From Chitinophaga pinensis (GTDB lineage Bacteria; Bacteroidota; Bacteroidia; Chitinophagales; UBA10324): DNA of 57,633 nucleotides. This document shows, one piece after another, positions 34,829 to 41,911 of the stretch. Position numbers and translations under genes: made by a program. Every line of letters starts with the position of its first letter. Position 1 is the stretch's first letter. The DNA lies in contig CAMDOA010000011.1 in the NCBI GenBank assembly GCA_945903305.1, positions 1 to 57,633 of the forward strand, in the 5' to 3' direction. The notes under the pieces are model-generated. The model made no database searches, had not been told where the DNA came from, and saw only the letters and a program-made list of their open reading frames with translations.

Positions 34829-35626
34829 CTACCTCGGTTCTTCTTCAGGAGTATCCAATTTAAACTGATCCAATGTGATATAGACATCTACGGCTTCTCC
34901 TAAATTTAATTTATTGTCGGCATCATTCGGCGAGGGTGTTTGCTTGTAAACTATTGCATTCAACGAATCGCCTCGCACAGTATTATCAGCTATTACTGCT
35001 CCGAGATTTAGCGATGATGCATCCAGAATAAATTTTACTTCGCGCAAAGTATGACCAATCAGTTCCGGAACTTCCACTTCCGTATTTCCTAATCCGTCAC
35101 CTAAAATCAAGTCAATGGTGGATCCTTTTTTTATGTTATCGCCAATGGTGATGTGGCGACCTCTTACCATCCAATCGAGTACCACATTCTGTGCTAAATC
35201 CGGTTTATAAATTAACTGGCCAACACGCAAACCAATATTTTCTAAAATCATTTGTGCCTGCTTCAACGAGTTGTCGGTAAGGTCGGGCATTTTTACCTGT
35301 GGAGGTATAATTGCGTTAACAGTCAGGTAAATGGTTCTTCCTTCTTTTACTTTCGAATTGGCAACGGGGATTTGTTCCAGCACAGCCAGTTTTGGTTTTT
35401 TATCATTGAAGGAAGAATCGGCAATGGCTATTTCTAAATTCCGATCTGATAATATTTGTTTTGCTTTTTCAAAACTCATTCCTGACAAATCGGGAACCGT
35501 AATAGTTTCGCCGTGTCGGGTGTAGCTGTTGAGAGCCGAAGTACCGAGCCAGAATACAATGATGAACAAGGCGATGGCGCCGAGCAAGTTGTATAGAAAA
35601 ATTCTGCTTTTAAGAAATTGCCACAT
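34829..35626 (-). CDS. Membrane-anchored protein with three PASTA domains
   Basis: 265 residues: a membrane segment (about 9-31) followed by three PASTA repeats (ITVPDLSGMSFEKAKQIL about 42; MPDLTDNSLKQAQMIL about 118; VPELIGHTLREVKFIL about 192), each closing with a '...v...v...G..I.l.v' strand. PASTA modules bind peptidoglycan fragments in Ser/Thr kinases and PBPs; here there is no kinase domain. It probably faces the periplasm and senses or binds muropeptides. It diverges from katG. Confidence 0.9.
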   Translation of the reverse strand: MWQFLKSRIFLYNLLGAIALFIIVFWLGTSALNSYTRHGETITVPDLSGMSFEKAKQILSDRNLEIAIADSSFNDKKPKLAVLEQIPVANSKVKEGRTIYLTVNAIIPPQVKMPDLTDNSLKQAQMILENIGLRVGQLIYKPDLAQNVVLDWMVRGRHITIGDNIKKGSTIDLILGDGLGNTEVEVPELIGHTLREVKFILDASSLNLGAVIADNTVRGDSLNAIVYKQTPSPNDADNKLNLGEAVDVYITLDQFKLDTPEEEPR

Positions 35627-35804: not shown

Positions 35805-38027
<2,223 letters not shown>

Positions 38028-38365: not shown

Positions 38366-39031
38366 ATGGCCATTAAGCTTACTGAACTTAAACAGCACAC
38401 GCGGCAAACTTTTGTTAAACCGGCAGTTAAGGAAATTGATATCACCACTAAAATAATTGATGCAATCTATAATTACATTCCGAAGGAATGTTACTGTCTT
38501 GCTGGTTATCTCGATAACAGCGATCAGTTTTGGAAAGTAAATTACCACTTTGATATACTGGCGATGAAGCTTGATGAGTTCTTTGAAATTGAAGGATTAG
38601 ATGACAAGTATTACAGAGCCGCAACCGCAATTGAAAATGCGCTTTATTCAAACATGCCTATTCCGCTAACAGGTTACAGATTAGATAAAAAGGTAGGGCA
38701 GACAAAAGATTTTAGTTCGGAAACGCAGATTATTGCGAGGCATAAAATTATTAAGCAGGTAAAAAAAGATTTCGAAATAGTTATTACAAAATCAAAGGTG
38801 GTAACCGCATCAAAAAAATCGAATCCGCCAAAGGATGAAAAAATGTGGTGGCTCGCTGTTGCTCCACTGGCAGCTCCGGGCACCAGCAAGCACGGAACCG
38901 GTTATGCCCTTGATATAGGAGGAAACAATTTAGAAACCACACGAATAAGCAAGGAACTTGGCGCAACATTGGTTTTTAACGAAGCATCGCATGTGCATGT
39001 TGAGTTTCAAAACTGGAAAGATTTGCTTTAA
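38366..39031 (+). CDS. Putative M15-like (VanY/endolysin-type) metallopeptidase
   Basis: 221 residues with no signal peptide. The C-terminal part carries SKHGTGYALD (Ser174-Asp183), an exact S-x-H-x-x-G-x-A-x-D zinc motif of M15 D,D-/L,D-peptidases, followed 26 residues later by SHVHVEF (His209, His211), the position of the third ligand and catalytic pair. The N-terminal 160 residues (YIPKECYCLAGYLDN..., then a basic linker) match nothing I know. It may cleave peptidoglycan stem peptides, but a way out of the cytosol is not evident. It is flanked on both sides by diverged copies of a ~120-bp direct repeat. Confidence 0.65.
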   Translation: MAIKLTELKQHTRQTFVKPAVKEIDITTKIIDAIYNYIPKECYCLAGYLDNSDQFWKVNYHFDILAMKLDEFFEIEGLDDKYYRAATAIENALYSNMPIPLTGYRLDKKVGQTKDFSSETQIIARHKIIKQVKKDFEIVITKSKVVTASKKSNPPKDEKMWWLAVAPLAAPGTSKHGTGYALDIGGNNLETTRISKELGATLVFNEASHVHVEFQNWKDLL

Positions 39032-39220: not shown

Positions 39221-41911
39221 TTACAAATCAACCTCTATCTTCTTAGTTCTCCCGAATTCTAATATTTGATCAATAAACTCGTAGGGCTTGTAATGATTAA
39301 TGGCGGCCTGGTGAAAAATGCAGGTGGCAGGTGTCATGCCGGGAAGCGAGTTCACTTCAATCACCACTGTTTCGGCATTGTTGTTTGCATCAATGCGCAC
39401 GAATGCATCAATGCGGCAGTAGCCCTGTACATTTAAAAGTCGTGCTGCTTTTTCCAAATCTGTTTTTACCTGCGTTGCAATTTTTGTGTATTCCTCTTTT
39501 GATTTTCCGAATCGCGCCGGAGTAATGTTTTGTCCTTCGCCGGCTAAAAATTTTTCTTCGAGCGAAAGCACATCAGCAGTAGCAAGCGTTTCACTGGGTT
39601 CGAATACTTCATAAGAAATTGTTCCATCAGCATTATAATGTGTGAGCATTCCGCAGGTGATTTCTAAAAAATGTTTGGCGCCATTTGCAGCTATTAAATC
39701 CTCTACCAAGAATTGTTCTTTCCGTGGAAACTCTTCTTTTGATTTTAAGTGAAGTGTAACAGCTTCGTTTGCATTCAGCAATTCCTGTTCGCGAAACATA
39801 AGGCGACTGAAAGCAATTAACTCATCGCGCGTTTTTATTTTTTTTACGGCACTGCTGCAACCATCATCAACCGGCTTAGTGATGATGGGTAATTTATGTT
39901 TTGTAAGAATGGAATCAGTAAATTTTTCTTCGCTCGCCTTCCAATCTTTTTTATAAACTAAGGATTGCTGTGCTTCATGAAAACCATGCTGTAACAGTAA
40001 TTGGTTCGTGTTAAATTTATTAATAGTGATTTGCGAAGACGAAACTCCACTGCCATTGTATGGCAATCCGACTTTTTCTAACTGATGCTGCACACTGCCA
40101 TCTTCGCCGGGGCGACCGTGCAAGGCAATGAAAACTCCTTCCACTTCATTTGGTAATTCAACATATGAAAGTTGTTTGGGAACAAATAAATAATTGCTGG
40201 AAGAAAATTTCTGTGTGATGTTTTTGCACTGCGCTTTTATTTTTTCAATCACCGGATGAAAACTGAAGTGTTTTATTTTTTCGCGAATGTCATCGGCATT
40301 ATCTTTCAGTAAAAGATTAATCGGAATCTGATACAGTTCGTGTTGCTCGTTGTTTCCGGTGAGGAAAACAGGAATGGGCTGGTACTTATCAGAGCTGGCG
40401 AGCTTCTCAAAAATATTTCGGCCGCTCTCCACGCTGATGTGTCGTTCAGTAGAGTAGCCGCCGAGAATAACTGCGATGCGAATTTTGTTTTCAGTATGTT
40501 GCTGTAGTTTATCAATTCCATTGTTGAGTCGCTGTAAGAGTGGCTCGTAAATCGCAGGGCGCACATTGGTTCGCATCCGTTCGCGCACACTTGTATGTAT
40601 GATGAACGAAAGAAACTGAGAAGGATTTAAACCAATCTCTGCTGCCTGATGAAAGAAGAACGAAGACGGCAACATACCGCTCGTAGTGTTTGGGTCGTTG
40701 AGAATAATTTTTCCGTCGGGGCGTATGAACCCATCAATTCGTGCATACACATGAAACCCAAAGAAGGAAAATAATTTCTCGCACTCTTTTCGAATCGCTT
40801 CAATCTGTTCGTCGGGAATTTGTATCGGGGTTATTTTGCGCGAAAGTCCGGCGAGGTATTTTGAACGATAATCGAAAACCTCTTTTCCTTTTACAATTTC
40901 GGTGGGTGGAAGAGCAATGGGATTATTTTTTTCGTCAACCACAACGATGCACGAAAATTCTTTTCCTTCAATAAATTCTTCAATCAGAATTTCTATCTCA
41001 GCATCATCGGCTTCGAGAATTAATTGTGGAATATTTTTCGCTGCAGATTTTTCAAACAACTGAAATAATTCTTCAGGATGGTAATATGTTTTTCCATTTA
41101 CTCTCAATGGCAATCCAACATTTTCCCGTATGTCACAGAGGTTATTTAGGAAAGTGATTTTTTCTTCTTCGTTTTTATTTTTCCATTCGGCAGCTTTCCA
41201 TTCGAAAAAGAAAAATGCTTTGTCAATTGCTTTAGTAATTGCTGTAATATCTTTTTCGTGAATGATTGAAACACCAATGGATGAACCCTGATTCGCAGGT
41301 CGAATAACCAACGGCAATCCGACTGCTGTAACACTTTTTTCAATCAATGAATTTTTATCTGCATGCAACCACTCGTCGCGTGTAACAGTTTTGAAACGGG
41401 TTGGAGTAAAGCCACCTGCATTCATCATACGCTTTTGAAAAGCTTTATTGATACCTATTGCCGAGGGAAGAATGCCTGAACCTGAATACGGAATCTGATA
41501 AAAATCAAGAATGCCTTGAATACTTCCATCTTCACCGTACGAACCGTGCAGCGCGAGAAAAGCAAAATCAATAATTGAGTTGAGTTCGTTGGGAAGAATT
41601 TTTTTTCCTACAGTAGAAATTATTTCTTCTTGTTTTTCAATAGATAGTTTTCCCAATGATTCAATATATACCTGAAAAGGATGAGCAGTATTTTGAATGA
41701 AATTAACAGATGGATAAAAATCGCGGATGCTGCCTTTATAAATGTATTGCCAGTCGAGCAAAATCAGGTTGTGAAAGCTGTCAATGAAAATCGGAAAAGG
41801 TTCGAAAATTGTTTTATTGAGGTTGTCATAAACTGTTCTGCCTCCGGCAAAAGATATTTCGCGCTCGCGCGAACTGCCGCCAAAAAAAATTCCGATTCTG
41901 ATTTTATTCAT
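39221..41911 (-). CDS. Tandem D-alanine--D-alanine ligase (two fused Ddl modules)
   Basis: 896 residues, about 2.7 times a normal Ddl. Module 1 (about 1-440): GGSSREREIS (11-20), LHGSYGEDGS, ATP loop RPANQGSSIGVS (204-215), omega-loop FDYRSKYLAG, RIDGF (391-395) and the Mg site LNDPNTTSGM (404-413); it has an extra ~70-residue insert (about 230-300). Module 2 (about 475-896): GGYSTERHIS, LHGRPGEDGS, KPVDDGCSSAV, SLEEKFLAG, RIDAF (833-837) and canonical IEVNSLPGMT. Both keep the ATP-grasp scaffold, so both may be active on dipeptide synthesis for peptidoglycan. Differences: module 1 has Asp where Ddl has the Mg-binding Glu; module 2 has Phe where DdlB has Tyr216. There is no sign of a frameshifted fusion: the linker is in frame. 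Confidence 0.9.
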   Translation of the reverse strand: MNKIRIGIFFGGSSREREISFAGGRTVYDNLNKTIFEPFPIFIDSFHNLILLDWQYIYKGSIRDFYPSVNFIQNTAHPFQVYIESLGKLSIEKQEEIISTVGKKILPNELNSIIDFAFLALHGSYGEDGSIQGILDFYQIPYSGSGILPSAIGINKAFQKRMMNAGGFTPTRFKTVTRDEWLHADKNSLIEKSVTAVGLPLVIRPANQGSSIGVSIIHEKDITAITKAIDKAFFFFEWKAAEWKNKNEEEKITFLNNLCDIRENVGLPLRVNGKTYYHPEELFQLFEKSAAKNIPQLILEADDAEIEILIEEFIEGKEFSCIVVVDEKNNPIALPPTEIVKGKEVFDYRSKYLAGLSRKITPIQIPDEQIEAIRKECEKLFSFFGFHVYARIDGFIRPDGKIILNDPNTTSGMLPSSFFFHQAAEIGLNPSQFLSFIIHTSVRERMRTNVRPAIYEPLLQRLNNGIDKLQQHTENKIRIAVILGGYSTERHISVESGRNIFEKLASSDKYQPIPVFLTGNNEQHELYQIPINLLLKDNADDIREKIKHFSFHPVIEKIKAQCKNITQKFSSSNYLFVPKQLSYVELPNEVEGVFIALHGRPGEDGSVQHQLEKVGLPYNGSGVSSSQITINKFNTNQLLLQHGFHEAQQSLVYKKDWKASEEKFTDSILTKHKLPIITKPVDDGCSSAVKKIKTRDELIAFSRLMFREQELLNANEAVTLHLKSKEEFPRKEQFLVEDLIAANGAKHFLEITCGMLTHYNADGTISYEVFEPSETLATADVLSLEEKFLAGEGQNITPARFGKSKEEYTKIATQVKTDLEKAARLLNVQGYCRIDAFVRIDANNNAETVVIEVNSLPGMTPATCIFHQAAINHYKPYEFIDQILEFGRTKKIEVDL

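Follow-up and report, generated by a model that had tools for sequence, protein, structure and literature searches.

A gene predicted to encode a tandem D-Ala-D-Ala ligase (Ddl) occupies positions 39221..41911 on the minus strand of the window, by which we mean the whole stretch of 57,633 nucleotides that was analysed. The gene is a single open frame that begins with an ATG at 41911 and ends at 39221, encoding a protein of 896 amino acids; the plus strand of the same interval carries many stops throughout. A gene predicted to encode a PASTA protein of 265 amino acids is located at 34829..35626, also on the minus strand; the protein contains three PASTA domains, and residues 9-27 are predicted to form its one transmembrane helix. 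Between these two genes, the window contains two genes on the plus strand: a catalase-peroxidase-like gene (35820-38027; katG, recognized by eye) and an M15/VanY-like gene (38366-39031), whose Pfam match is below the cut-off.

Pfam identified PF01820 (Dala_Dala_lig_N) in two stretches of the 896-aa chain and PF07478 (Dala_Dala_lig_C) in four, and the whole chain scored 359 against the NCBIfam model TIGR01205 (cut-off 246), a score that sums over both halves. Aligned to each other, the halves share 25% aa identity over 463 columns. The predicted structure of the whole chain, a model built from 37 sequences (mean pLDDT 86.4, pTM 0.85), consists of an N-module (residues 1-451; 40559..41911, minus strand) and a C-module (residues 476-896; 39224..40486, minus strand), joined by a linker helix (residues 452-475; 40487..40558, minus strand). 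The best alignments of the N-half and the C-half to solved Ddl structures, which extend over the length of each half, had Z scores of 36.1 and 37.2, respectively, and the Ddl N-domain and ATP-grasp C-domain that define the family are present in both. The original prediction had placed two complete Ddl folds on one chain and had proposed structure prediction of the whole chain and of each half as checks; the Pfam matches, the structural matches of each half and the Ddl motifs as it named them bear it out. It described the tandem correctly and gave no strand, which we can now assign as minus; neither the PASTA partner nor the lack of a stand-alone Ddl in the genome was visible to it. Its suggestion of a covalent pseudo-dimer is compatible with the confident overall placement of the halves in the model, as judged by pTM.

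The genome has no Ddl besides the tandem. For the 3.12-Mb assembly (138 contigs, 99.2% complete), a genome-wide search with PF01820 returned exactly two matches, both within the tandem frame (41477-41899, E = 2.2e-24; 40049-40480, E = 6.5e-22). A search of the genome for a stand-alone ddl had been suggested alongside the original prediction; none was identified elsewhere in the genome by PF01820. Further PF07478 matches fall in frames of 398-971 aa, all of which are devoid of a PF01820 match, and their length and repeats suggest that they may encode different ATP-grasp enzymes, for example biotin carboxylase or carbamoyl-phosphate synthase. Across the order, exactly two PF01820 matches, as two halves predict, were counted in each of the 80 genomes whose tandem scored high, with the positions of the matches seen for part of these genomes. 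Two genomes with family code f20 (G128 and G271) have zero PF01820 matches despite completeness of 99-100%. On contig C62 of the window's genome (15238-15906; L318), an 852-aa frame combines a Mur ligase domain with an alanine racemase domain, the arrangement of a MurF-Alr fusion; thus, the enzymes before and after Ddl seem to be fused as well.

A tandem gene in a single assembly could be a collapsed or mis-joined gene or one that lost a stop codon, which the original prediction had named as an outcome that would overturn it, and the only point in favour of such an artefact is the fragmentation of the window's genome into 138 contigs. The original prediction had also called for a search for how widespread the double-Ddl architecture is. 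Using the tandem profile at E ≤ 1e-100, we sampled 396 genomes of the class Bacteroidia and identified matches in 165 of them, in 84 of 199 genera. Among the matches listed in the class, four of the 165 are of a shortened type from the family with code f86, and all but these four span both halves or run off a contig; the carriers include genomes assembled in one to four contigs. Within the order, the profile at E ≤ 1e-60 matched 84 of 298 genomes that are ≥90% complete, with four of the 84 being degenerate. Among 40 relatives, a match over most of the chain was present in each of the five that belong to the window's genus and in nine of 10 others of the family; the sole family genome without a match is 72% complete, and the matches in G002 and G015 run off contigs. 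A phylum-wide draw, class members included, gave matches in five of 247 genomes, each being the window's own genome or one of the same order or class, and one of the five is an f86 genome. Named carriers comprise isolate assemblies of Pontibacter, Rufibacter and Rhodocytophaga together with metagenome assemblies whose names include Saprospiraceae, Chitinophagaceae and Cytophaga; for 38 of 80, the name gives no family. Single stops were flagged within a few matches, and in the two that were inspected (G006 and G427) the stop is the gene's own end. Because the tandem is conserved across the class, named isolates included, we conclude that it is not an assembly error, and we regard a mis-joined gene or a lost stop as vanishingly improbable.

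We used E. coli DdlB as the reference, and for residue numbering, in a comparison of the active sites. Tandems in which both halves scored >150 bits and were near full length numbered 177, or 163 after deduplication; four degenerate loci were set apart, leaving 159. In all 159, the N-module contains Glu15, Ser150, Lys215, Tyr216, Arg255, Asp257, Asn272, Gly276 and Ser281, while Glu270 is replaced with Asp and Pro275 with Ser. The position of Lys144 is occupied by Lys in 110 and by Arg in 49. Across the positions Glu15, Lys97, Lys144, Glu180, Glu187, Lys215, Arg255, Asp257, Glu270 and Asn272, the N-module retains the reference residue except at Glu270 (159/159) and Lys144 (49/159). Based on alignment and structure, the corresponding N-module residues in the window are Ser210 and Tyr352 (DdlB Ser150 and Tyr216), Arg204 (Lys144), Asp406 (Glu270) and Ser411 (Pro275).

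The C-module has the reference residue at Glu15, His63, Lys97, Lys144, Glu180, Glu187, Lys215, Arg255, Asp257, Glu270 and Asn272, each in 159/159 tandems. In the same 159, Ser150 is replaced with Cys, Tyr216 with Phe and Ser281 with Thr. The C-module of the window, which has the full Ddl fold, retains all of the catalytic residues that were checked, and its altered substrate site consists of Cys685 (codon 39857..39859, minus strand), Phe788 (codon 39548..39550, minus strand) and Thr863, which align to Ser150, Tyr216 and Ser281, respectively. One contig collection, in which 75 of 80 loci passed a two-motif filter, had been scanned with N-module motifs; because the scan relied on these motifs, the count was repeated without this collection, and the same pattern was found in 83/83 tandems from 43 family codes (for the C-module, at the catalytic positions His63 to Asn272). 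The catalytic roles of the listed residues, those of Ser150 and Tyr216 excepted, are assumed here.

According to an excerpt of one report, ligases whose sole product is D-Ala-D-Ala conserve Ser150 and Tyr216; the excerpt attributes a gain of weak D-Ala-D-Lac activity to E. coli DdlB in which Tyr216 and Ser150 were replaced with the Phe and Ala of Leuconostoc LmDdl2 (PMC7691350). This Ser150/Tyr216 pair of strict D-Ala-D-Ala ligases is present in all 58 stand-alone Ddl rows of our alignment (duplicates kept) and in 159/159 N-modules, and it is absent from the C-module. As read from the alignment, the C-module probably combines an intact ATP/Mg and acyl-phosphate site with a re-specified substrate site, Glu15-Cys150-Phe216 rather than Glu15-Ser150-Tyr216.

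A Ddl tree was built from 67 sequences, which came from 17 of the 163 tandems, from E. coli (DdlA and DdlB), from 27 rows of stand-alone Ddl and from four rows of f86; tandems L236 and L237 failed the filter and were left out. In this tree, which was made with a quick method that infers no root and in which the long branches of DdlB and L035 join each other, all N-modules together with f86 form one group (support 99), all C-modules form another (100), and the stand-alone sequences lie apart with DdlA and DdlB (86). The simplest reading is that the N and C halves diverged once, early, and were then inherited jointly.

The four f86 genomes among the matches listed in the class have one PF01820 match each, in an ORF of 558-590 aa that comprises the N-module followed by the initial portion of the C-module. 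At the two f86 loci inspected, only opposite-strand frames follow the ddl ORF. Shortening by a frameshift was rejected in L228, as no open remnant of the C-module is present in the three forward frames after the stop. In the Ddl tree, f86 nests within the N-module group beside Rhodocytophaga, indicating that the loss of most of the C-module is derived. The f86 proteins keep Asp270, have Lys144, and have Pro275 back. None of the other PF07478 matches in f86 genomes has a PF01820 match, which leaves f86 with this one canonical Ddl; a genome can thus depend on an N-module with Asp270 as its sole canonical Ddl. One f86 genome also encodes a 328-aa Ddl-like ATP-grasp protein that is devoid of the Ddl N domain (L296; G514 contig 1, 363538-363933).

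A PASTA gene accompanies most of the tandems. Across 192 tandem loci (duplicates between collections kept), the PASTA gene lies directly downstream on the same strand, at -200 to +400 bases, in 113; the tandem is fused to PASTA in 18, and PASTA is found at other distances in eight. A further 35 loci show no PASTA in a flank of >900 bases, and 18 are too close to a contig end. The fused chains scanned with Pfam contain Ddl domains and PASTA, and in 7/7 fused chains examined a transmembrane helix is predicted just ahead of the PASTA domains. Pfam identified no kinase domain in the PASTA protein of the window or in the fused chains scanned. On a PASTA tree of 38 hand-chosen rows, the fusion requires one change, and the named fused rows are Saprospiraceae. 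PASTA proteins also exist in f86 genomes, where they are unlinked to ddl; physical linkage is thus not required everywhere.

Within the genus of the window, the PASTA gene is directly downstream of the tandem in L010 and L013, and neither of the plus-strand genes is present there. L011 and L092 have the M15-like insertion in common with the window and have no katG-like gene. The VanY/M15-like gene was considered as a functional partner and rejected, given its Pfam match below the cut-off and its absence at this site in L010 and L013; because it is missing at the same place in these two loci, we treat it as an insertion.

Six genomes encode a stand-alone Ddl and also retain a fused chain (L222-L227). 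All six of these chains are damaged, yet each is a single open frame of 1041-1280 aa with PASTA, and a membrane helix was seen in all four that were checked. In the four chains that could be aligned, both halves are damaged, and the other two are more degenerate. In three of the four aligned N-modules, Lys97, Arg255, Asp257 and more have been lost; damage to the N-module of L225 is milder, with Glu68, Lys215 and Gly276 gone and Arg255, Asp257 and Tyr216 remaining. All four aligned C-modules have lost His63, Lys215 and Arg255. Decay of the N-module only, beside a stand-alone Ddl, was therefore rejected.

On the PASTA tree, the six damaged chains require at least three separate changes, and L225 is placed beside L235, an intact chain of its own genus. 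The stand-alone Ddls of these genomes (five of the six were included) fall in two separate groups of the Ddl tree. Among the degenerate pairs, only L222/L223, which belong to one genus, were usable for dN/dS, both L224 pairs having given infinite dS. For L222 and L223, dN/dS was 0.06 in the N-module, 0.03 in the C-module and 0.04 in PASTA, with dS of 2.3-3.1, which is near saturation. These ratios suggest that the damaged chains are under purifying selection in one genus and that the protein body may be useful without catalysis. The idea of the C-module as a wholly independent enzyme is weakened by the joint damage of the halves together with the at least three changes on the PASTA tree. The original prediction had offered two enzymes of different specificity as an alternative to a pseudo-dimer; the difference in the C-module substrate site (Cys150/Phe216/Thr281, 159/159) would fit one part of this proposal, whereas the joint damage of both sites beside a stand-alone Ddl argues for one task.

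Ddl, the target of D-cycloserine, is an essential enzyme that textbooks present as one small protein forming homodimers. The tandem resembles the stand-alone DdlA and DdlB (TIGR01205, PF01820 and PF07478) in the fold of both halves, in most or all of the checked catalytic residues, and in its TIGR01205 score; it differs in having two modules with a fixed asymmetry, a C-module without Ser150 and Tyr216, an N-module with Asp270 and Ser275, and a link to PASTA. None of the Van-type ligase models was over its cut-off among the 25 of 33 families covered (D_ala_D_lac, 195 against a cut-off of 550; VanG, 239 against 495). The nearest known joinings are the MurC-Ddl fusion and the PASTA kinases. Like the MurC-Ddl fusion (NF011171), which we take to be chlamydial, the tandem joins a Ddl to another peptidoglycan-precursor protein; however, Pfam identified no Mur ligase domain in it, and it scored 176 bits against a cut-off of 1015. 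The fused forms share with PASTA Ser/Thr kinases (NF033483) the arrangement of a cytosolic enzyme, one transmembrane helix and PASTA on one chain, but the enzyme is a Ddl pair and no kinase, and the PASTA protein of the window scored 87 bits against a cut-off of 450. The DDL of plant and moss chloroplasts is a fusion of two Ddl domains. In part of one publication, moss Ddl is described as closest to homologues in the Fibrobacteres-Chlorobi-Bacteroidetes group (PMC9434261). The C-module shares with Leuconostoc LmDdl2 a Phe at the place of Tyr216, according to the excerpt cited above (PMC7691350), but at position 150 it has Cys where LmDdl2 has Ala. A literature search of titles and abstract openings, in which few subscription papers were covered, found no bacterial tandem Ddl or Ddl-PASTA fusion.

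We propose that, in much of Bacteroidia, the bimodular chain would take the place of a stand-alone Ddl. Its N-module would be the working D-Ala-D-Ala ligase and the Ddl that the cell needs, and the C-module would be a second ATP-grasp ligase unit, re-specified as a partner in the same task and acting with the N-module to supply dipeptide to MurF. The C-module might be either a second ligase that differs in kinetics or in preferred acceptor, or a partner that binds substrate and thereby sets how active the N-module is. PASTA domains have a known role in the envelope. Gene order, fusion and this role point to a PASTA membrane protein that, whether adjoining or on the same chain, would place the cytosolic ligase at the inner membrane, forming a link to the envelope, and that may report on the peptidoglycan outside. 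That both halves are damaged together when another Ddl is present makes a shared task for the two modules more likely than a second, independent product, and the retention of the chain without catalysis, along with the PASTA linkage, suggests a role at the membrane. We give this explanation an even chance of being right.

Several points can be raised against it. The N-module has Asp in place of Glu270, the usual Mg ligand, and Ser in place of Pro275, so catalysis may be slower in this half, and intact tandems may depend mainly on the C-module for ligation; in f86, Pro275 could have restored competence. Relaxed constraint acting on a single chain, and not a shared task, could also account for the damage of both sites. 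In addition, 35 of the 192 loci have no PASTA in the flank, PASTA is unlinked in f86, and the N-module of L225 is only partly damaged.

The substrate-site replacements could instead mean that the chain makes two products, the N-module forming D-Ala-D-Ala and the C-module forming D-Ala-D-X, for example D-Ala-D-Lac, since Ser150 and Tyr216 are both replaced. The invariance of Cys150/Phe216/Thr281 in 159/159 C-modules is in keeping with this proposal, as is the weak D-Ala-D-Lac activity gained by DdlB with the Phe and Ala of LmDdl2 (PMC7691350, as excerpted). LmDdl2 (1ehi) is also among the top structural matches of the C-half; however, it is tied there with D-Ala-D-Ala ligases, and the Van ligase models remained far below their cut-offs (among 25 of 33 families). 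Moreover, f86 lives without most of the C-module, and damage to both halves beside a stand-alone Ddl in at least three lineages would not be expected if the product of the C-module were needed. We therefore consider two products unlikely. The loss of most of the C-module in f86 would be accommodated if the C-module were instead a catalytically silent regulatory or structural unit, a built-in half of the Ddl dimer, and both the confident single arrangement of the halves in the predicted structure (pTM 0.85) and the probable purifying selection on damaged chains in one genus, whose body would be useful without catalysis, fit such a unit. Yet the checked catalytic residues, including Arg255 and the Mg ligands, are identical in 159/159 C-modules; by contrast, His63, Lys215 and Arg255 were lost in the four aligned C-modules beside a stand-alone Ddl. 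Silence of the C-module in intact tandems accordingly seems to us quite improbable.

The explanation that we prefer, a working N-module with a re-specified partner and a PASTA link, can be extended in a tentative and rather doubtful form. The chain might be a membrane-tethered, envelope-sensing Ddl with two unequal sites, in which the Cys/Phe site would take another acceptor or gauge substrate, and control by PASTA would tune the dipeptide supply to the state of the wall; after takeover by a stand-alone Ddl, the chain would persist as a pseudo-ligase PASTA receptor.

In a substantial fraction of one bacterial class, then, Ddl is a two-site chain in which the second active site has been naturally rebuilt and which is tied to PASTA. 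The tandem offers a direct test case for the role of Ser150 and Tyr216, for control of the dipeptide supply exerted from outside the membrane, and for the passage from an enzyme to a pseudo-enzyme receptor. If the two-domain DDL of plants has the same signatures, the origin of a wall gene of the chloroplast could be traced.
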